Source: Thermoproteus uzoniensis 768-20 (GTDB lineage: Archaea; Thermoproteota; Thermoprotei; Thermoproteales; Thermoproteaceae). Taken from it: a DNA stretch of 64,000 bases. The stretch is from assembly GCF_000193375.1 (NCBI RefSeq), contig NC_015315.1:1868622-1932621 (forward strand), written 5' to 3'. The notes under the pieces are model-generated. The model made no database searches and had not been told where the DNA came from. It saw only the letters and a program-made list of their open reading frames with translations. A program made the position numbers and the translations under genes. Positions 28,386 to 48,351 of the stretch are shown here, piece by piece (the stretch's first letter is position 1; each line of letters begins with the position of its first letter).

Positions 28386-28403
28386 TTTCCGTAATACTGA
28401 AAA
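28386..28403. promoter_or_regulatory. Imperfect copy of the hydrogenase/nickel operator (NiCoT gene)
   Basis: TTTCCG-TAATAC-TGAAAA: right arm perfect, left arm two mismatches to TTTTCA. Ends 36 bases before the transporter ATG and a few bases before the TATA-like GATTTATTAATA (28408-28419). Same position relative to the promoter as the perfect sites. Confidence 0.55.
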
Positions 28404-29519: not shown

Positions 29520-29537
29520 TTTTCACGAAAATGAAAA
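29520..29537. promoter_or_regulatory. Hydrogenase/nickel operator at hypD
   Basis: Perfect TTTTCA-CGAAAA-TGAAAA dyad ending 32 bases before the hypD GTG, immediately upstream of a TATA-like TTTTTTAG (29541-29548). One of four perfect copies in the window. Confidence 0.7.
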
Positions 29538-33592: not shown

Positions 33593-33610
33593 TTTTCATC
33601 ATATTGAAAA
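33593..33610. promoter_or_regulatory. Hydrogenase/nickel operator at cbiM
   Basis: Perfect TTTTCA-TCATAT-TGAAAA. Ends 4 bases before the TATA box GATATAAAAA (33614-33623) and 32 bases before the cbiM ATG. Confidence 0.7.
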
Positions 33611-33642: not shown

Positions 33643-34251
33643 ATGCACATACCCGACGGGTATTTGGACCCGATCTCGGCCGGAGTGACGTGGGCGGCTA
33701 TGCTGGGCTACGGCTATTACGCGTACAAACACAGCGATCTCTCCAAAAACATGGAGATGATCTTGGCGCTGGCCGCGGCCATATTCGTCGCCCAGATGCT
33801 GAACTGGCCCATCCCCGGGGGCACTTCGCTCCATCTAGTGGGCGGGGCGCTGTCGGCGATTTTGGTCGGGCCCTTCGACGCCTTCTTCGTTTTGTTGCTA
33901 GTGTTGGTGGTGCAAGCCTTGGTTTTCCACGACGGCGGCATAACGACGTTGGGGGCCAACGTCATCAACATGGGCGTCGTGGCGCCCTTAGTGGGCTACG
34001 TCGTCTATAAAGCGCTTAGGCGCTACGGCAAATTCTGGGCGGCTCTAGTGGCCGGCTGGGCGAGCATAACGGTGGCCGGCTTCGCCGCAGGTCTAGAAAT
34101 CGGCCTCAGCCCCGCCTTCCCATACGGCGTAGCTATAAGCGTCCCCGTCATGACTATGTGGCACGCGTTGCTGGGGATCGTGGAGGGCCTCATAACGGCC
34201 CTCGTGGTCGTTTACCTATCCAAGAGGGCGCCTCAATACGTGAGGCTATGA
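33643..34251 (+). CDS. cbiM: Nickel/cobalt ECF transporter substrate-binding membrane subunit (CbiM/NikM)
   Basis: 202 residues from ATG 33643, giving the diagnostic N-terminus MHIPDGYLDP, whose Met-His binds the metal. The frame opens 5 codons earlier, but TATA at 33614 supports 33643. About six membrane helices; PGGTSLHLVGG and LVFHDGGITTLGANVINMG are conserved. First gene of cbiM-N-Q-O; imports Ni2+ or Co2+. The hydrogenase context and operator favour nickel. Confidence 0.93.
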   Translation: MHIPDGYLDPISAGVTWAAMLGYGYYAYKHSDLSKNMEMILALAAAIFVAQMLNWPIPGGTSLHLVGGALSAILVGPFDAFFVLLLVLVVQALVFHDGGITTLGANVINMGVVAPLVGYVVYKALRRYGKFWAALVAGWASITVAGFAAGLEIGLSPAFPYGVAISVPVMTMWHALLGIVEGLITALVVVYLSKRAPQYVRL

Positions 34252-36689: not shown

Positions 36690-37286
36690 TCAGCCGCTGG
36701 AGGAGCAGTTGAAATAAGCCAGGAGGGAGTTCACCAGATCGCCGATTCTCTTCATGTGGGAGACGACATATTGCCATCTTCCGCCTACTATTAGATAGGT
36801 CATGTACCGCCCTCCCCCTAGAGGAGTTATGGAGATGTAGATGCCCTCCCCGCCTTGAGGCTCGCCGCTTATGAGGACTATCCCCGTCTTGACGAACTCC
36901 TCCCCGGCAATTGTCACCTTCTCGCTTCTGCAGTCTTTGCCGGGAAAGCCGAAGGAGGCGTGGAGCTCGGCCCTCGGAGGCTCCGGCATCGAGAGCTCCA
37001 TCAACGCCCTAGAGACGTCAGCGACGCCTCTGTTCAATATGTTGAGGCTGTCGCCGTAGACGCCCAGAGCCCCCCTCTGGACATCGGCGAGCAGGTAGAC
37101 TATGCCCTCCTCGTAGACTCGCCTGGCGGCGTAGCCGCCGGGAAGGGGATCTAGGTGCAACACCCCCTCCCTATACGTCGCGTGCCCCACCTCGTAGCCT
37201 AGGCCCACCAGCTTCCCCAAAACTGCGGGGAGGTCGAAGCTAGTCCCGTATATGAACCAATAGGTGTAGGAAAGGCCGTATATCAT
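36690..37286 (-). CDS. Hypothetical protein at the end of the hydrogenase operon
   Basis: 198 residues, soluble, mixed alpha/beta (ILNRGVADVSRALMELSMPE; TGIVLISGEPQGGEGIYIS), ending in Cys-Ser-Ser-Ser-Gly. ATG overlaps the previous stop by 4 bases, so it is translated with the hydrogenase genes. Not a known Hyp or Hup protein that I can recognise. Possibly an accessory chaperone or assembly factor (inference from operon position only). Confidence 0.7.
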   Translation of the reverse strand: MIYGLSYTYWFIYGTSFDLPAVLGKLVGLGYEVGHATYREGVLHLDPLPGGYAARRVYEEGIVYLLADVQRGALGVYGDSLNILNRGVADVSRALMELSMPEPPRAELHASFGFPGKDCRSEKVTIAGEEFVKTGIVLISGEPQGGEGIYISITPLGGGRYMTYLIVGGRWQYVVSHMKRIGDLVNSLLAYFNCSSSG

Positions 37287-37576
37287 TTGAAATGTCCCTT
37301 GATCTTTTTATAGAGCTCCTCTAGATCCCCGCCCTTGAGCTCCTTGGCGCTCCCCAGATCGGTCACCCAGTTGTAGAGGACGGCGCCCAGCGTCTTCTTG
37401 AGCTCGCCCCTCACGGGCCCCGCGACGGGCTCCACCAATACGGCTCTCAACTCCTCTATGGGCCTCAACACCGGCTCTATAGATCTCTTAAGCTCGCGGT
37501 ACGCCCTTATCAGCTCGGCTAGATCACGCGCGGAGGACACGTCTAAAACACTCCTCCACGCCTTTTTTAACATCAC
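37283..37576 (-). CDS. Hypothetical helical protein in the hydrogenase operon
   Basis: 97 residues (GTG 37576 or ATG 37573), almost entirely helical and charged (ELIRAYRELKRSIEPVLRPI, SAKELKGGDLEELYKKIKGH). Overlaps the protease gene by 53 bases and the next gene by 4. No recognised family; operon position suggests an assembly role. Confidence 0.65.
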   Translation of the reverse strand: MMLKKAWRSVLDVSSARDLAELIRAYRELKRSIEPVLRPIEELRAVLVEPVAGPVRGELKKTLGAVLYNWVTDLGSAKELKGGDLEELYKKIKGHFK

Positions 37577-38036
37577 CGTCGATTTTCAGCTCGTATCCGA
37601 ACTCTGCGAGCTTGGCCCTCAGCTCCGACAACACTATGTGCGAGGCGTTGAGCACCTCCTCGGACGGCGGCGAGAGCGGCTCCACTCTCTTGGGCCCCAC
37701 GGCGATTAGATAGGCCTTGGGATTCCTCCCCATGGCTCTGAGGTATCCCACTAGCAGGGACGGCGGAGTCCTATGCGCGTCGACCAGCCTCGTCTCGGCC
37801 ACCGTAAGAGATCCCTCTATTCTCTCGACGGCGACGGCCCCCGGAGGCAGACGCGCGTCTACGTCGACGAAGATCAAGACGTCGTAGTCGGCCAGATTGC
37901 CCAGAACCCCTATGCCGTGGGCGTTCCCGTCGAGGACGAAGGGGTTTGTGGAGGATAAAAATTGGGCGAGACAAGATCCGAAGCCGTCGTCGCCGTATAT
38001 GGGGTTGCCCAGCCCTACAACGAGCAAGCGTTCCAT
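37524..38036 (-). CDS. Hydrogenase maturation endopeptidase (M52, HyaD/HupD-like)
   Basis: 170 residues from ATG 38036, inside the end of the large-subunit gene. It cleaves the C-terminal extension of the large subunit once nickel is in place. GLGNPIYGDDGFG provides the first nickel ligand, VDVDARLPPGAV the second (Asp), and VDAHRTPPSLL the His: all three are present. The frame upstream of 38036 is the large-subunit shadow. Confidence 0.93.
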   Translation of the reverse strand: MERLLVVGLGNPIYGDDGFGSCLAQFLSSTNPFVLDGNAHGIGVLGNLADYDVLIFVDVDARLPPGAVAVERIEGSLTVAETRLVDAHRTPPSLLVGYLRAMGRNPKAYLIAVGPKRVEPLSPPSEEVLNASHIVLSELRAKLAEFGYELKIDGDVKKGVEECFRRVLRA

Positions 38037-39934
38037 ATAACCTTCTCTATGACGTTGTAGACGCGGCCGCCCTCGCCCTTGGCCTCGAAGTGGACGGCGC
38101 AGGCAAGGCAGGGGTCGAAGCTGCGGATTGCCCGGACGAAGTCCAGCCCGGTCCACTGGTCGGGCGGCACCTCCTCGGTGACCTTGCTGTTTATCACGGA
38201 CATCTCGAACGGGCCTCTGCACTGATTCTTCCACGGATCGGTGCACCGGGAGTTCTGCGGGCTGACGTTAGGCGTGGTGGGGGCCTCGTACTGGTAGTTG
38301 GCGATCTTCCCGTTCTGCTGGACTAGCCAGTGCATGCAGTTACCCCTCGGCACTTGCCACCAGCCGAAGCTGTAGCTGAAGCTCGGCCACTTGCCGAAGG
38401 ACCACGGCCTGGACGTCTGGGTCTTGCCGGCGCTGACGAGTTTCAAGCCGTAGAGCAGGTTGGCCCAGGCGAGGGACACGACGAGGGCTAGGTGGACAGC
38501 TCTCGCCAACAGCCTCTCCATGGTGGTGGAGTACTTAGGCAGATTCCACGTAATCGTCAACTCGCCGTACGTCCCCTCTGGTAGGTCGGGGTTCACGGTG
38601 CCGCCGGGGAGGTACACCTTTAGCTGGCTCCCGTTGGACTCCCAGGCCTTGTGGTTGTCGACTTGGACCGTGGCGGCGTGGAGCGTGTCGAGCCACAGCT
38701 GGGCTATGGGCCCTGTCTCTATCGGCGCGATCCTGCCGTCCTTGAGCAACAGTCTGGGCTCGGCGGCCCACGTGTACTTCTCGGCGAAGTTTATGGCGCC
38801 GGGCCTCGGGATCGTGGTCCTGTTCCACATATGGTATTTGAATAAGGGATCGTTGCCGTAGGCCAGCGGCCTCCCCAACGGGTCCTCCTTGAGCCAGCCG
38901 TAGGGCGGGGCCACGTTGGCCTTCACCCAGTCCTCGTAGAAGGAGGAGTCGGCGAACTCCAGATAGCCCAGCTGTATCTCTGTGGGGTTGGGGCTGTAAA
39001 TCTCGTGGCCTATGGCGAAGCCCGGCTTCTCCCACCTGGCGTTATACGCCTTGTCAAGCAAGGAGTACAGCTTGACCCAGTCGCCGCCCGCCTCGTCGTA
39101 TATACCACTATATACCTCCGGGTCGTCGGACCAGCCGCTGGCCAGCAACACAGGCGGGTCGTGCGTCTTGCCTTGCGTCAAGGCGTAGCTCTGCCCGTCG
39201 GGCGTCGAGACGTGGTCTCTGAAGAACTCGTAGAGGTCCTGCCATATGGCCCAGACAAATTTGACCCAGGCCGTGAGGAGCGACAAGCGGGTGTAGTACT
39301 CCTGGAGGAGGGAGCCGAGCAGAGTTATGTCTGTCGATATGCCTCCCGGTATCAGAGTGGAGGGGTGCGAGTGTCTGCCGTATATCAAGACGCCGGCCTC
39401 CCTAGCTATGCGCTGGTGCTTCACGGTCAATTGCCATATCCTTCCCTGTATGGGGTTCAGATCCCTCATTATGTCCGCTATGGTGCGGTAGCCGTGTATG
39501 CTGGAGTAGTTGGCTGGCGTGGACTTCGCGGTCTCCCACACAGAGGGCGTCAGCTTGCTCACTATGGCCTCGCTGTAGTCGGGGCCCTCCAGCATGTTGA
39601 GGATTATGGAGTGGTCGTAGGTGTAGTCCGTCATGGCGTACGCCATGTTCCTGAGGACGTTGCCCATGGGGAGGGGCGTCATGCCGGCCGCCGCGTCGCA
39701 AGCCCTCGTCGAGGCGTTGGCGTGGGCGGCCCCGCAGACGCCGCAGGTGCGGGAGGTTATATGTATGGCGTCCTCCGGCGGCCTCCCCCTCAGAAAGACC
39801 TCAAAGCCGCGGAACATCATGACCGTCGTGTGGGCCTTTGAGACGGCCCTGGAGGCGCTGTCTATTTCTGCGTAAAGCGCGAGGTGCCCCTCTATACGGG
39901 TTATGGGATCTATCCAGAGCTTTATCGTCGACAT
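38015..39934 (-). CDS. [NiFe] hydrogenase large subunit
   Basis: 639 residues. Nickel ligands: L1 SRTCGVCGAAHANAS near residue 60 and L2 FDPCLACAVH near the C-terminus. About 22 residues follow the His (FEAKGEGGRVYNVIEK...) and are the expected cleaved extension. Opening IDPITRIEGHLALY is typical. It carries no signal and should be co-exported with the Tat-bearing small subunit. The gene has its own TATA (about 39955-39963) and operator (39968-39985). Likely a crenarchaeal group 1 uptake enzyme. Confidence 0.97.
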   Translation of the reverse strand: MSTIKLWIDPITRIEGHLALYAEIDSASRAVSKAHTTVMMFRGFEVFLRGRPPEDAIHITSRTCGVCGAAHANASTRACDAAAGMTPLPMGNVLRNMAYAMTDYTYDHSIILNMLEGPDYSEAIVSKLTPSVWETAKSTPANYSSIHGYRTIADIMRDLNPIQGRIWQLTVKHQRIAREAGVLIYGRHSHPSTLIPGGISTDITLLGSLLQEYYTRLSLLTAWVKFVWAIWQDLYEFFRDHVSTPDGQSYALTQGKTHDPPVLLASGWSDDPEVYSGIYDEAGGDWVKLYSLLDKAYNARWEKPGFAIGHEIYSPNPTEIQLGYLEFADSSFYEDWVKANVAPPYGWLKEDPLGRPLAYGNDPLFKYHMWNRTTIPRPGAINFAEKYTWAAEPRLLLKDGRIAPIETGPIAQLWLDTLHAATVQVDNHKAWESNGSQLKVYLPGGTVNPDLPEGTYGELTITWNLPKYSTTMERLLARAVHLALVVSLAWANLLYGLKLVSAGKTQTSRPWSFGKWPSFSYSFGWWQVPRGNCMHWLVQQNGKIANYQYEAPTTPNVSPQNSRCTDPWKNQCRGPFEMSVINSKVTEEVPPDQWTGLDFVRAIRSFDPCLACAVHFEAKGEGGRVYNVIEKVIWNACSL

Positions 39935-39967: not shown

Positions 39968-39985
39968 TTTTCAGACCCGTGAAAA
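39968..39985. promoter_or_regulatory. Hydrogenase/nickel operator at the large-subunit gene
   Basis: Perfect TTTTCA-GACCCG-TGAAAA, lying in the 63-base gap between the cytochrome b and large-subunit genes. It is followed on the minus strand by TATA-like GTTTTTTAACC and, 33 bases after the site, the ATG at 39934. Implies an internal promoter in the operon. Confidence 0.7.
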
Positions 39986-39997
39986 AATCGCTGGGGT

Positions 39998-41017
39998 TTA
40001 AGACGTTTGTATATTCCAGAGCGGGTGCTCCTCTTTGGCTATGCCGGACGGCATCTTCCCCTCGTGGAACATTCTGTTGTACGGGAATATGTGCGGCATG
40101 AAGTGGGTGTAGGTCAGATGCACCAGCAACAGGAACGAGACGGCCAACACGGCCTCTTTCGTGTGGAACAGGTAGGCCAAGCCGTCGAAGGCCGACGGCC
40201 CGTATATGGCCATCAAGGCGCCGGGTATGCCCAATATGACGATACCCCAGTAGACGCCCCAGTACTCGAACAGCTGCTCGGCGTCGTATTTGTGGACCCA
40301 CGGAGGCACCTTCCAGCTGGGCTTGACGAGCCATATGGACCTGTGGATCAAGTGCTTGACGAAGCCCCACGTCCAGAGCCTCAGAAGCGGCCACCTCTCC
40401 ATGACGGGCCTCCTCTTGACTATGTCAATTAGGACCCGGGTCCCGTAGTAGGCGAAGTGGGCTATGACCAAGACGCCCATGGCTATGCCGCTCCACACGT
40501 GGATTATGATCATCCACTGGACCGGCCCCGTCTGGGCCGGCCAGAGGAAGTAGGGCGGGGAGCCCGCTGCGTTGTAGACGCCGGGTATGTACCACTGTTG
40601 CCACTGGGGGTTGTTGACGAACATAGTCACGAAGCCTGTGAAGGCCGTCAACACGAGCGTGACGAACATGGCTATATGTTGCACTCTCTGCATCACGGAC
40701 CACCTCTGCACCTTGGGCGTGTTCATGAGTTGCCTATAGCGGTCGTAGTTGGCGGCGTAGGCGGCGAAGTGGCCGAGGACCCAATAGGAGCCGTAGATCA
40801 CTATGGCCGTTATGAGTATGTCGAAGGCGAGGCTCCAGAACAAGAACTCGAACTGGAGGTCGGAGATCCTAATGCCGTATGTGGCCACGTAGGACCAGAA
40901 CTGGGGCCAGGTCTCCAGAAGCGAGGGGAGGACCAGGAAATATTCAATGACCCAGGTGAGGCCTACGGTTATCGCCGTCCCTATAAGGCTCCCTATCACT
41001 CTGCCGGTCCACCTCAT
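39998..41017 (-). CDS. Hydrogenase cytochrome b-type membrane subunit
   Basis: 339 residues, about six membrane helices. His residues suited to haem binding lie in QRVQHIAMFVTLVLTAFTGF, IIHVWSGIAMGVLVIAHF and LLLVHLTYTHFMPHIFPYNR. Related to Isp1/cytochrome b561-like subunits that anchor uptake hydrogenases and pass electrons to quinone. Overlaps the small-subunit gene by 4 bases. Confidence 0.88.
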   Translation of the reverse strand: MRWTGRVIGSLIGTAITVGLTWVIEYFLVLPSLLETWPQFWSYVATYGIRISDLQFEFLFWSLAFDILITAIVIYGSYWVLGHFAAYAANYDRYRQLMNTPKVQRWSVMQRVQHIAMFVTLVLTAFTGFVTMFVNNPQWQQWYIPGVYNAAGSPPYFLWPAQTGPVQWMIIIHVWSGIAMGVLVIAHFAYYGTRVLIDIVKRRPVMERWPLLRLWTWGFVKHLIHRSIWLVKPSWKVPPWVHKYDAEQLFEYWGVYWGIVILGIPGALMAIYGPSAFDGLAYLFHTKEAVLAVSFLLLVHLTYTHFMPHIFPYNRMFHEGKMPSGIAKEEHPLWNIQTS

Positions 41018-42360
41018 TTCTTCTCCTCAGCCTTCTCGCCGGCCTTCTTCTCGGCCCTAGCCCTAGCGGCGGCCCAGACGCCACCTATGACGCCCGCGCC
41101 GGCTATCGCGGCGGCGGAGGCTATGGCGACCTTGGTCAAGGTATCCACGCCGATCGGGGCGTAGGGCAACTTCGCGTAGAACGGCTCGAAGGCGTCGCTG
41201 AAGCCCGGCTGGGTGCACCCGATACACACGCCGCCGGTCCTCGTGGGGCCGCCGACTCCTCCCACCCACCCTACCTTGTTCCACGGGCAGTGCGACACCG
41301 GGCCCTTACAGCCCACAGCGTAGAGGCACTTCCCGTCGCCCGCGCCGGGGTACGGCCTGAAATCGCCCGCGGCGTACCAAGCGGCTCTCGGGCACTGCTC
41401 GTGCGTGGTTAGCTGGAATATGAAGTTGGGCCTAGCGTATTCGTCCAAGAAAGTCTCGCGGCGGAGCACGCTCACGTCCAGATACCCGGCGGCCACTAAC
41501 ACGAGGAGGGCCAGCGTCCTCATTATGCCGTTGCCGTTGGCCGGACAGCCGGGGACCGCCACCGCGGGCTTCACGGTCTTGAGGTCGGGCACGCCGCCCT
41601 CGTCGATATACTTCCTAAACGGCTCCACCTCGGGCTGGAAGTAGTCCTGGTGTATCACGCCCTTGATGCCGCGTATCGGGTCGTCGAAGAAGCCTATGGC
41701 ACCTGTCGGCGATTGGGACCAAGTGGCGTACTGGAAGCCGGGCGGAGGCTCCAGCACCTTGTTGGCCGGTATGCCTCCGTACGTCGCGCAGTTCCCCACG
41801 GCGACTACCGCAAGGGCGTTGGGCAGGAGCTTCTTCAGCCACTCTGTACACGTGTGCTGGCCTATCTTGCAGTAGTACCCGCCCTCAGTCGTTATGTTGG
41901 AGCCCGAGATGCCGAACTCTTGCGGGAAGCTGCCCTCTAGGACCAGCACGTAGGGGCCGTACTTGCCGTTTGCCAGATCGGTGAGTATGGCGTCTGCGTT
42001 GCCGGGAGGCGGCTGCTGTGATACTATAGAGGCGAGGAACTTGTCGTTGTTGACGTCGGCGGCCGACGTAACGTGGTATGCCCCCCATTGGGGCATAACC
42101 GTCTCGTGGAAGAGGAGCCTCACAGTGCCGGGGCCCACCAACGGCGTGGTGCCCAGCAAGACGTCGACGAGGGAGGGGTCCGTGGCCTGTATCACCGACG
42201 TGGTGTTGCCGGCGCAGTCCTGGGCCTCCAGCCACACAACTCCTATATCGCCGTTCTTTATGGCCTCGCCGGCGGCCTTAGTCAAGGCGCTCCAGTTCAG
42301 CGCGGCGAGGGCGGAGGCCAGCGCTGAGGCCTTTAGGAAATCACGTCTTCTTATCCGCAT
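41014..42360 (-). CDS. [NiFe] hydrogenase small subunit with Tat signal
   Basis: 448 residues. Twin-arginine signal MRIRRRDFLKASALASALAA at the N-terminus and a C-terminal membrane helix (VAIASAAAIAGAGVIGGVWAA) followed by a charged tail, so the enzyme faces outside the membrane. Cys residues for three Fe-S clusters lie in EAQDCAGNTTSV, VGNCATYGGIPA, AVPGCPANG and CIGCTQPGFSD. TATA-like GATTTTTAAG and the operator at 42394 lie upstream, within the preceding gene. Confidence 0.96.
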   Translation of the reverse strand: MRIRRRDFLKASALASALAALNWSALTKAAGEAIKNGDIGVVWLEAQDCAGNTTSVIQATDPSLVDVLLGTTPLVGPGTVRLLFHETVMPQWGAYHVTSAADVNNDKFLASIVSQQPPPGNADAILTDLANGKYGPYVLVLEGSFPQEFGISGSNITTEGGYYCKIGQHTCTEWLKKLLPNALAVVAVGNCATYGGIPANKVLEPPPGFQYATWSQSPTGAIGFFDDPIRGIKGVIHQDYFQPEVEPFRKYIDEGGVPDLKTVKPAVAVPGCPANGNGIMRTLALLVLVAAGYLDVSVLRRETFLDEYARPNFIFQLTTHEQCPRAAWYAAGDFRPYPGAGDGKCLYAVGCKGPVSHCPWNKVGWVGGVGGPTRTGGVCIGCTQPGFSDAFEPFYAKLPYAPIGVDTLTKVAIASAAAIAGAGVIGGVWAAARARAEKKAGEKAEEKK

Positions 42361-42964
42361 TGTGGCTACTCTTGGTAGCTCTTAAAAATCGCGTTTTCAA
42401 GGATCTGAAAAACACCTTGGCGTGGGGACATTCTGGGTAGAGCTTTTTGCATCCATCGCCGCACAGCTTGCAACGCGCCGCGACTATGCCTCCGCCGCCT
42501 AGAATTAAGGCGGAGCCGTCGACCTCCACGACGCAATCCCTACAGAACTGGAAGAGCAGATCGACGGCCAGCCCCTCGACGGGGGTGCCCCGTAGCTCCC
42601 TCAAGGCGCCGACGCCTATTAAGCCGACGGTATCCGCCAGCGATCTGACGGGGAGATCCGCCTCGCCCAATCTCCTACAGACGAGCTCGAGGTATTCCCT
42701 CATCACATCTGCCGATACGCCGTATTTTCTGGCCAATATGCGGAGGGCGACGTCGTCGTGTAGGGCCAGCAAAATTAAGCCGGACTCGGTTATCCTCACG
42801 CGGCCGTTGTGGTACTCCAAGTAGCCGCGCTCGGCGAGGCGGCGGAGTATCCTCCAGACAGTCGCCAGGGGTATGGACGTGGACTTGTAGACGTGGTAGA
42901 ATCTATTGGAGGCGAGCGCCGCTCTCAGAATCTCCACCTCTCTGTCCTCCAGCCGCCTACACAT
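42341..42964 (-). CDS. Winged-helix protein with C-terminal cysteine cluster, candidate hydrogenase regulator
   Basis: 207 residues. N-terminal winged helix (VYKSTSIPLATVWRILRRLA, then YLEYHNGRVRITESG); middle helical; C-terminal Cys-rich segment FCRDCVVE and CKLCGDGCKKLYPECPH (six Cys), a plausible Fe-S or zinc site. Overlaps the small-subunit gene by 20 bases and the preceding gene by 8. The hydS operator and promoter lie in its last 70 bases. Position and architecture suggest a redox- or metal-sensing regulator of the operon; unproven. Confidence 0.75.
   Translation of the reverse strand: MCRRLEDREVEILRAALASNRFYHVYKSTSIPLATVWRILRRLAERGYLEYHNGRVRITESGLILLALHDDVALRILARKYGVSADVMREYLELVCRRLGEADLPVRSLADTVGLIGVGALRELRGTPVEGLAVDLLFQFCRDCVVEVDGSALILGGGGIVAARCKLCGDGCKKLYPECPHAKVFFRSLKTRFLRATKSSHNADKKT
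42394..42411. promoter_or_regulatory. Hydrogenase/nickel operator at the small-subunit gene
   Basis: Perfect TTTTCA-AGGATC-TGAAAA, inside the coding end of the winged-helix gene. It ends 33 bases before the hydS ATG, with TATA-like GATTTTTAAG (42381-42390) between. Confidence 0.7.
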
Positions 42965-43433
42965 GGCCCAACAGCTCGATCACCTTCTCGGCCATACGCT
43001 CTGCGCATTTCTCCCCCTCCGGAGACAGCCCTATGCCCGGCTCGGGGACAGGCGGCTCGCACTCCACCACGTACACCTTCCTCGCCACGGGGCCCAAGAC
43101 GCTCAGCCCGGTCAAGAGGTCTTGGAGCGATATGCGGCCCTCCAACGACGGCCGTAAGGCGTCGGCGGCCTCCAGATAGTCCTTGAACTTCTGCGGGACG
43201 AACTCGTAGACCTCTATGGTGCCCGGCGGGCGGCCCCTCTGCACTGTGCCGAGGAGTATCAGAACTTCGTGGGGCCGGCTCCTCAGCTCGTCCACCATGG
43301 CGAAGACGTCGCCAGAGAGCTCCAAGACCTCGTACCCCTTCTCCCTCAATATACGACCTGCCTCGTAGCCTATAGAGCAGTCTTGTCTCAAAAAATAGCC
43401 TACAGAGGCGATAAGGACTTTCCTGAAGAGCAC
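42957..43433 (-). CDS. M52-like protein lacking the protease nickel ligands
   Basis: 158 residues from GTG 43433, chosen because the TATA-like TTAAATATATT (about 43453-43462) lies 25 bases upstream; the frame is open 7 codons further. The fold pattern VLIASVGYFLRQDCSIGYEA, EVLILLGTVQRGRPPGT, ISLQDLLTGLSVLG follows hydrogenase maturation proteases. The GN..DD motif, the Asp of the second strand and the His are all replaced. Probably non-catalytic. First gene of the hydrogenase operon. Confidence 0.7.
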   Translation of the reverse strand: MLFRKVLIASVGYFLRQDCSIGYEAGRILREKGYEVLELSGDVFAMVDELRSRPHEVLILLGTVQRGRPPGTIEVYEFVPQKFKDYLEAADALRPSLEGRISLQDLLTGLSVLGPVARKVYVVECEPPVPEPGIGLSPEGEKCAERMAEKVIELLGHV

Positions 43434-43435
43434 AA

Positions 43436-43642
43436 ATATAAAAGAAAAAAACAATATATTTAAGCCTTACTCTCTTTATTTTTATCATTATTTTAACAAT
43501 TATTTTATTGATATAAAGAAGAAATAATATATTTTTATTTTTAATTTCCATAGTCATATAAATATTTTAAAATAAGGAATATTTAGGGAAAAATATATTA
43601 TAATAACAAATTAATAATGTTAATATTTATAAAAATAGGTTT
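43436..43642. promoter_or_regulatory. AT-rich promoter region of the hydrogenase operon
   Basis: About 200 bases of almost pure A and T in a GC-rich neighbourhood, with many A- and T-tracts. It carries the TATA box for the gene starting at 43433 and, at its other end, the stop of the convergently placed 43643 gene. No operator copy of the TTTTCA type occurs here. Confidence 0.5.
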
Positions 43643-43954
43643 TTATGTACTATTGAGGATAATATTGACGGCCTCTTCTATACTTGTGAGCCTTATTCTA
43701 TCCGTGTCTGCGTCGTAGACGAGAAGCTGGTCTACGCCGTATAGTATGTAGTACCTCACTTCGGGGTCGTGCAACACGCGGGGCATTAAAGAGCCGAACA
43801 TGGACACGAGCTCGTTGGCGGCTACGGCGTAGCATATCTCCTTCTTCTTGGAGGAGGCGCACTCGAGATACCTCTTCCTAATACCTTTGAGGCCTTCCTT
43901 TAAGGTCTCTATCTTCAGATCCCTCGGAGTTATGCCGTCGTCCATTCTAAACAT
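43643..43954 (-). CDS. Hypothetical protein, 103 residues, divergent from nikR
   Basis: Helical first half (IETLKEGLKGIRKRYLECAS), then a VHDPEVRYYILYGVDQLLVY-like strand region. ATG 43954 or 43945. Shares the roughly 40-base AT-rich divergent promoter with nikR (TATA-like TTAAATAAAAG on this strand, 43971-43979), so it may be controlled together with it. Family not recognised. Confidence 0.6.
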   Translation of the reverse strand: MFRMDDGITPRDLKIETLKEGLKGIRKRYLECASSKKKEICYAVAANELVSMFGSLMPRVLHDPEVRYYILYGVDQLLVYDADTDRIRLTSIEEAVNIILNST

Positions 43955-43997
43955 CGCCGGGAGATACTGCTTTTATTTAATGTGCTTTCTCAGATAC

Positions 43998-44390
43998 ATG
44001 AAAAGGATTAGTTTAGCCCTCGACGACAAGCTGTATAGGGAGATAGAAAACGCCATGTCGATGGTCGGCGAGACAAACAGGTCGCGTTTCATCGCCTCCA
44101 TAGTGGCGGAGAAGATTTCCGAGATGATCCAGAGGCCTATGGCCTCCATAATAGTCTACATATACGACCACGAGGTCGGGGAGGTCGCCAAGAGCGTGAC
44201 TGAGGTGCAGCACGAGTTCAGGGACGTGATAAGGGCGTCGACGCACATACACCTCGACGAGAGGAACTGCCTGGAGGTCGTGCACGCGTTGGGGGACAGC
44301 GATAGGATAAGGGAGCTCGTGACCAGGATATCTAGGATCGGCAGAGGGCTTAAGTTCCTGAGAGTTGTCAACGTGCCGCGCCTAGAGTAG
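43998..44390 (+). CDS. nikR: Nickel-responsive regulator NikR-like
   Basis: 130 residues from ATG 43998 (the longer frame from 43848 is spurious). N-terminal ribbon-helix-helix KRISLALDDKLYREIENAMS, then an ACT-like domain with the NikR nickel site His-...-His-x-His-x5-Cys: VQHEFRD, STHIHLDERNC. Senses Ni2+ and controls uptake genes. Located between the hydrogenase operon and hypAB, it is the natural candidate for binding the TTTTCA-N6-TGAAAA sites, although known NikR sites are longer spaced. Confidence 0.92.
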   Translation: MKRISLALDDKLYREIENAMSMVGETNRSRFIASIVAEKISEMIQRPMASIIVYIYDHEVGEVAKSVTEVQHEFRDVIRASTHIHLDERNCLEVVHALGDSDRIRELVTRISRIGRGLKFLRVVNVPRLE

Positions 44391-44404: not shown

Positions 44405-44426
44405 TTTTTCCGCGGGCGTGGAAAAA
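44405..44426. promoter_or_regulatory. Respaced variant operator at hypA
   Basis: TTTTTCC-N8-GGAAAAA (GCGGGCGT between), a perfect 7-base dyad whose arms resemble the operator but lie 2 bases further apart. TATA-like CCTTTTTAACC follows and the hypA ATG is 30-31 bases downstream. Confidence 0.45.
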
Positions 44427-48333: not shown

Positions 48334-48351
48334 TTTTCGCGATCGGGGAAA
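48334..48351. promoter_or_regulatory. Degenerate operator at hypE
   Basis: TTTTCG-CGATCG-GGGAAA keeps most of the left arm and part of the right arm of the TTTTCA-N6-TGAAAA element. It ends 32 bases before the hypE ATG with TATA-like GGTATAAAAA (48355-48364) between, the same geometry as the perfect sites. Confidence 0.4.

Follow-up and report, generated by a model that had tools for sequence, protein, structure and literature searches.

SurR of the Thermococcales is an archaeal winged-helix regulator of hydrogenase genes; it is cysteine-dependent, and it activates from sites upstream of TATA, while downstream sites lead to repression (PMC12162507). In the hydrogenase cluster of T. tenax, a gene labelled 'lrp' has been drawn between hypZ and hynS (PMC3189178, Fig. 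2A). Our survey of the open-access literature found no published hydrogenase or nickel-uptake regulon in Thermoproteales, and no published account of the regulon, site or paralogue series described here. We examined a 64,000-nucleotide stretch of Thermoproteus uzoniensis 768-20 DNA (the window) and relate a winged-helix protein encoded beside hydS to its probable targets. Across Thermoproteales this regulator is locked to hydS, and a phased palindrome marks the hydrogenase, hyp and nickel-uptake promoters.

An earlier note on this DNA had described the regulator gene as wedged, with overlaps on both sides, between an M52-like gene and hydS. We confirm this arrangement, the regulator sharing 8 nt with the former and 20 nt with the latter. 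On its 3′ side follow hydS, a cytochrome b-like gene, hydL and a standard M52 protease, and near the cluster lie NikR, hypA, an Mrp/HypB-like ATPase, hypE, hypDC, a cbiMNQO-like transporter and a NicO nickel permease. The main genes are as follows.

42341-42964, minus strand: winged-helix regulator gene, 207 aa, ATG start (ORF, orthologues, neighbourhood)
41014-42360, minus strand: hydS, Tat-exported [NiFe]-hydrogenase small subunit (Pfam/NCBIfam)
39998-41017, minus strand: cytochrome b-like membrane subunit (Pfam)
38015-39934, minus strand: hydL, [NiFe]-hydrogenase large subunit (Pfam/NCBIfam)
42957-43454, minus strand: M52-like protein gene (adjoins or lies near the regulator in all these loci)
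43992-44390, plus strand: NikR (Pfam/NCBIfam)

The M52-like protein matches TIGR00072 (E 1.9e-9) without the GNPxxxDDG motif of the true M52 protease (37524-38054), and is possibly a chaperone, not a protease. Three conserved hypothetical proteins, orf97, orf198 and orf103 (36690-37576 and 43643-43954), recur in nearly all these hydrogenase clusters, with no credible Pfam or NCBIfam match found for any of them. The hydS-hydL interval holds either one cytochrome b-like gene, as here, or elsewhere an isp1-isp2 pair (L018:10321-12400), the other operon genes being conserved.

Relatives of the regulator were identified by protein search in 13 of 41 near genomes. At all 12 of the other loci with the hydrogenase-linked orthologue, the regulator gene is the immediate upstream neighbour of hydS and shares its strand, a position held by a recognisable orthologue in 13 of the 13 Thermoproteales genomes that have one. 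Searching 81 genomes of the class for hydS itself, we found this gene in 14 Thermoproteales genomes, with the regulator adjoining it in 13. The adjacency supports the reading of the protein as a hydrogenase regulator put forward in the earlier note, as does the place of the hydS site among eight phased ones (below), and the gene-neighbourhood survey clearly contradicts the contrary case of orthologues never linked to hydrogenase genes. The exception, G004, is a case of hydrogenase decay: its hydS (L102:7167-8506) is broken into three pieces with stops, no operator was detected, and a diverged relative of the regulator stands one to two small genes upstream. Neither the near-genome protein search nor the 81-genome hydS search revealed an orthologue in a genome without hydS, and the regulator is absent beside more distant hydS genes of another family in the class. 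The M52-like gene is immediately upstream of the regulator with three exceptions: G007 has it a few kb off, and G021 and G037 have a small ORF in between. In G028 (L173:3279-4595), orf198 and a split cytochrome b stand next to hypDCFE; hydS, hydL and the regulator are absent, and an Mvh/Hdr-like hydrogenase lies nearby.

The proposal that an operator and promoter for hydS lie in the last codons of the regulator gene also held: TTTTCA-N6-TGAAAA and, 5 nt from its edge, a TATA-like box are found there, upstream of the hydS ATG at 42360. This exact palindrome occurs four times in the 64 kb and five times in the 1.94-Mb genome, and all four copies in the window lie 32-33 nt upstream of hypD, cbiM, hydL and hydS. 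With two mismatches or fewer allowed, six matches appear in the window where shuffled sequence would give 0.56, far more than chance predicts; across the whole genome the looser TTTTC-N8-GAAAA is found seven times, and a reversed control once. The consensus site is TTTYC-N8-GRAAA, just upstream of a TATA-like box. Scanning with a matrix of 23 sites, all outside the genome scanned, gave as the eight best window matches the sites listed below (13.1 to 25.5 bits, 32-36 nt before starts), a result that shows transfer between genomes and not blind target discovery, as the training sites were picked upstream of the same gene set elsewhere. The ninth-ranked match scores 10.3, ten other gene starts near the cluster stay below 2 bits each, and Markov-1 sequences yield 0.025 matches per 64 kb at the rank-7 score.

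42394-42411: putative hydS operator, TTTTCAAGGATCTGAAAA, edge 33 nt from the hydS ATG (motif and matrix scan)
about 42381-42388, minus strand: hydS TATA-like box, TTTTTAAG (sequence)
39968-39985: putative hydL operator, 33 nt before the start (matrix scan)
29520-29537: putative hypD-hypC operator, 32 nt before the start (matrix scan)
33593-33610: putative operator of the cbiMNQO-like Ni/Co transporter, 32 nt before the cbiM start at 33643 (matrix scan)
43987-44004: putative orf103 operator, 32 nt before orf103, overlapping the nikR start codon (matrix scan)
28386-28403: putative NicO nickel permease operator, 36 nt before the start (matrix scan)
44407-44424: putative hypA-hypB operator, 32 nt before the start (matrix scan)
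48334-48351: putative hypE operator, 32 nt before the start, the weakest at 13.1 bits (matrix scan)

Since orf103, which bears a site, is the first gene of the orf103/M52-like/regulator cluster, this cluster is likely to be autoregulated; the 190-nt gap before the M52-like gene could hold another promoter. The sole exact palindrome outside the hydrogenase cluster (L161:5040-5057; G000:998039) lies 28 nt before a gene that may also belong to the regulon and encodes an MFS-like membrane protein of 370 aa.

Wherever a Thermoproteaceae genome has the operon intact, both hydS and hydL carry a site, the one at hydL being weak in G003, and the same motif stands at equal distance before hydS and hydL (or isp2, hypD, cbiM) in other genomes. 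Codon bias was rejected as the origin of the palindrome, given that it also precedes hydL, hypD and cbiM and that the hydS site of G003 is intergenic, and thus non-coding. The order-level relatives G021 and G037 have weaker sites before hydS and hydL, the latter placed between divergent hydL and the regulator cluster. The G009 orthologue (L026:8462-9048) is frameshifted around residues 78-92; its hydS operator is exact and its hydL operator has one mismatch. Phased palindromes of this kind suggest sequence-specific DNA binding by the regulator.

A profile search revealed more relatives in the same genomes. In G000, G002, G003, G005 and G009 a paralogue (truncated in G009) immediately precedes an operon for a Tat-type molybdopterin oxidoreductase that also has fdhD- and fdhE-like genes; these names, and that of formate dehydrogenase, are our reading of the sequences, of which Pfam confirms molybdopterin oxidoreductase only. 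Each of the five promoters has TATTC-N11-GAAYA immediately 5′ of a TATA-like box, and this motif has only 2 to 10 strand matches in each of the five genomes. It stands before a small ORF (about 70-80 aa) that precedes the catalytic subunit (L059:8947-9543 and upstream of 9810; L058, L060, L028, L068). The 18-bp TTATCA-N6-TGATAA found within the final codons of the T. uzoniensis formate-dehydrogenase paralogue was dropped as a candidate, the conserved site being TATTC-N11-GAAYA just downstream. Two related genomes, G012 and G016, have a relative after dsrAB together with TTATTTC-N10-GAAATAA in the dsrA promoter, just 5′ of a TATA-like box; this sulfite-reductase palindrome, seen in these two genomes only and absent at the other dsrA-like loci examined, is weak evidence. 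Similar half-sites at different spacing, each operon with its own paralogue, form the main argument that the regulator family reads these sites, and the paralogues may act on formate-dehydrogenase-like and sulfite-reductase operons as the regulator would on the hydrogenase.

At the protein level, two domains can be delineated.

42755-42964, minus strand: winged-helix domain, residues 1-70 (AlphaFold, structural matches, alignment)
42368-42724, minus strand: C-terminal domain, residues 81-199, with invariant C96, C165, C168 and C179 (alignment, AlphaFold, fold search)

The winged helix recognised in the earlier note is borne out by Pfam wHTH matches, weak as they are (best HVO_A0261_N, E 5e-5, below its cutoff; NCBIfam likewise weak), and by an AlphaFold model (mean pLDDT 85.6; about 95 over residues 10-80) that resembles wHTH structures, those of MarR type among them, over residues 1-91 only (VIA-align Z about 8-9). 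Beyond the winged helix of residues 1-70 this model continues with helices, a part of four strands and a long helix. The recognition helix, at about residues 33-45 (LATVWRILRRLAE), is conserved as LATxWR among orthologues, L33 and R38 being nearly invariant; model, structural matches and alignment thus agree on the wHTH fold with conserved recognition helix that marks the winged-helix superfamily. The C-terminal half is predicted as alpha/beta, with helices, beta hairpins and a final helix. Predicted alone (pLDDT 86.2), the C-terminal domain had no significant fold match in the PDB (best Foldseek E 0.17; one VIA row, Z 2.4), which does not by itself prove a new fold.

The regulator has cysteines at residues 2, 96, 141, 144, 165, 168, 172 and 179. 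The six that had been described as a cluster (C141, C144, C165, C168, C172, C179) do exist, but among ten Thermoproteaceae orthologues only C165, C168 and C179 of them are invariant, together with the unlisted C96; C141 is kept in nine, C144 in eight and C172 in two. A six-cysteine cluster thus fits this single sequence, and the conserved set numbers four. In the more distant orthologues G021 and G037 the cysteines are rearranged. From the alignment, only C96, C165, C168 and C179 appear conserved enough to be candidate ligands. The CxxC and a following third cysteine are common to the paralogue types, and the fourth varies between subfamilies, the formate-dehydrogenase-linked paralogues also having a cysteine at a distance of about two helical turns from the position of C96.

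Taking these lines together, we consider it probable that the protein is a one-component regulator that controls transcription of the uptake [NiFe]-hydrogenase through TTTYC-N8-GRAAA. As a homodimer it would likely bind this site via its winged helix. It would act mainly as an activator of hydS, hydL, the hyp and Ni-uptake genes and its own cluster, because the site lies immediately 5′ of the TATA-like box; by analogy with SurR, the position at hydS likewise suggests activation, though an overlap of the site with the BRE could instead block TFB. Less certainly, the C-terminal domain may use C96, C165, C168 and C179 to bind a metal or an Fe-S centre that couples redox or metal state to DNA binding, the Cys4 set suggesting a metal, Fe-S or redox signal. 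For this last step alone, the four cysteines could instead hold structural zinc, with sensing elsewhere, for example in a small-molecule pocket of the C-terminal domain. CxxC...C motifs are commonly structural Zn sites, and the differing fourth cysteine also speaks for this. The set nevertheless appears to bridge the C-terminal sheet and, through C96, a helix that comes after the winged helix, where a switch could well be placed, and it is retained in relatives beside several anaerobic respiratory operons. Structural zinc is a genuine possibility, which we hold at somewhat less than an even chance.

The site might alternatively belong to NikR, which would bind TTTYC-N8-GRAAA and tie hydrogenase and Ni uptake to nickel status, leaving another role for the winged-helix protein. 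The regulon is nickel-centred, one site overlaps the nikR start codon, and NikR occurs in every Thermoproteaceae genome with an intact hydS operon, so that co-occurrence cannot separate it from the regulator. G028 lends this alternative weight: it has NikR and neither hydS nor the orthologue, yet retains a site of 17.9 bits before cbiM, which is out of phase, and part of a site at hypA. In G009 the hydS and hydL sites persist though the orthologue is frameshifted, which counts against control by the regulator. On the other hand, E. coli NikR binds GTATGA-N16-TCATAC, with a half-site spacing much wider than N8 (PMC7055735). Further, the hydS and hydL sites are kept in every genome and the Ni-transporter sites are not, the T. 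tenax-like G002 having no matching site before cbiM or hypA despite a 77% identical NikR. NikR would also leave unexplained the similar palindromes at the paralogue-carrying formate-dehydrogenase and sulfite-reductase operons, which favour the winged-helix protein as the presumed binder. Overall, we regard NikR as an unlikely reader of these sites. That the regulator instead helps the Tat-exported small subunit to assemble or mature, as a chaperone or maturation factor, its winged helix serving protein contacts, would suit its place between the M52-like gene and hydS in most operons, but is very improbable given the conserved recognition-helix residues, the phased putative operators at linked promoters, and paralogues that also adjoin dsrAB sulfite reductase, ORFs without obvious Tat leader.

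Extending our preferred reading, a one-component DNA-binding regulator, to the relatives, we tentatively propose, at little short of an even chance, a regulator family, so far from Thermoproteales only, with a new-fold C-terminal Cys4 sensor domain, in which paralogues separately control hydrogenase, formate-dehydrogenase-like and sulfite-reductase respiration, each via its own TTC...GAA palindrome whose spacing sets specificity. The analysis yields a candidate for the regulator, maps eight sites in one genome and adds conserved sites in a dozen others. The paralogue series lets one ask how target spacing and signal change between related archaeal regulators, and the whole is open to testing in vitro, with no need of genetics.

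Compared with known systems, the regulator shares an N-terminal helix-turn-helix with Lrp/AsnC, and Lrp-like PDB chains match its residues 5-60 by profile. An AsnC/RAM domain (PF01037) was not among its Pfam matches at E<=1, with one bacterial AsnC PDB chain weakly matching residues 86-123 (E 0.42). The T. tenax 'lrp' gene is an apparent orthologue, and its Lrp label finds no support in the domain content. With NikR the overlap is that of a nickel-linked regulon; NikR is a separately encoded ribbon-helix-helix protein, and its C-terminal domain (PF08753), matched by the ORF at 43992-44390 with E 1e-23, has no match in the regulator. The wHTH fold is common to MarR/TrmB-like regulators, whereas the C-terminal domain is unmatched, the structural matches ending at residue 91 and no MarR model appearing among the Pfam matches. 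SurR resembles the regulator in being an archaeal winged-helix protein, and would do so in acting on hydrogenase genes, in depending on cysteines and in activating from upstream of TATA, but carries a CxxC in its N-terminal wHTH, where the regulator has none and only C2 precedes residue 96. SurR also has a second, C-terminal wHTH in place of the alpha/beta half with the Cys4 set, and its sites are GTTn3AAC, as against TTTYC-N8-GRAAA here.
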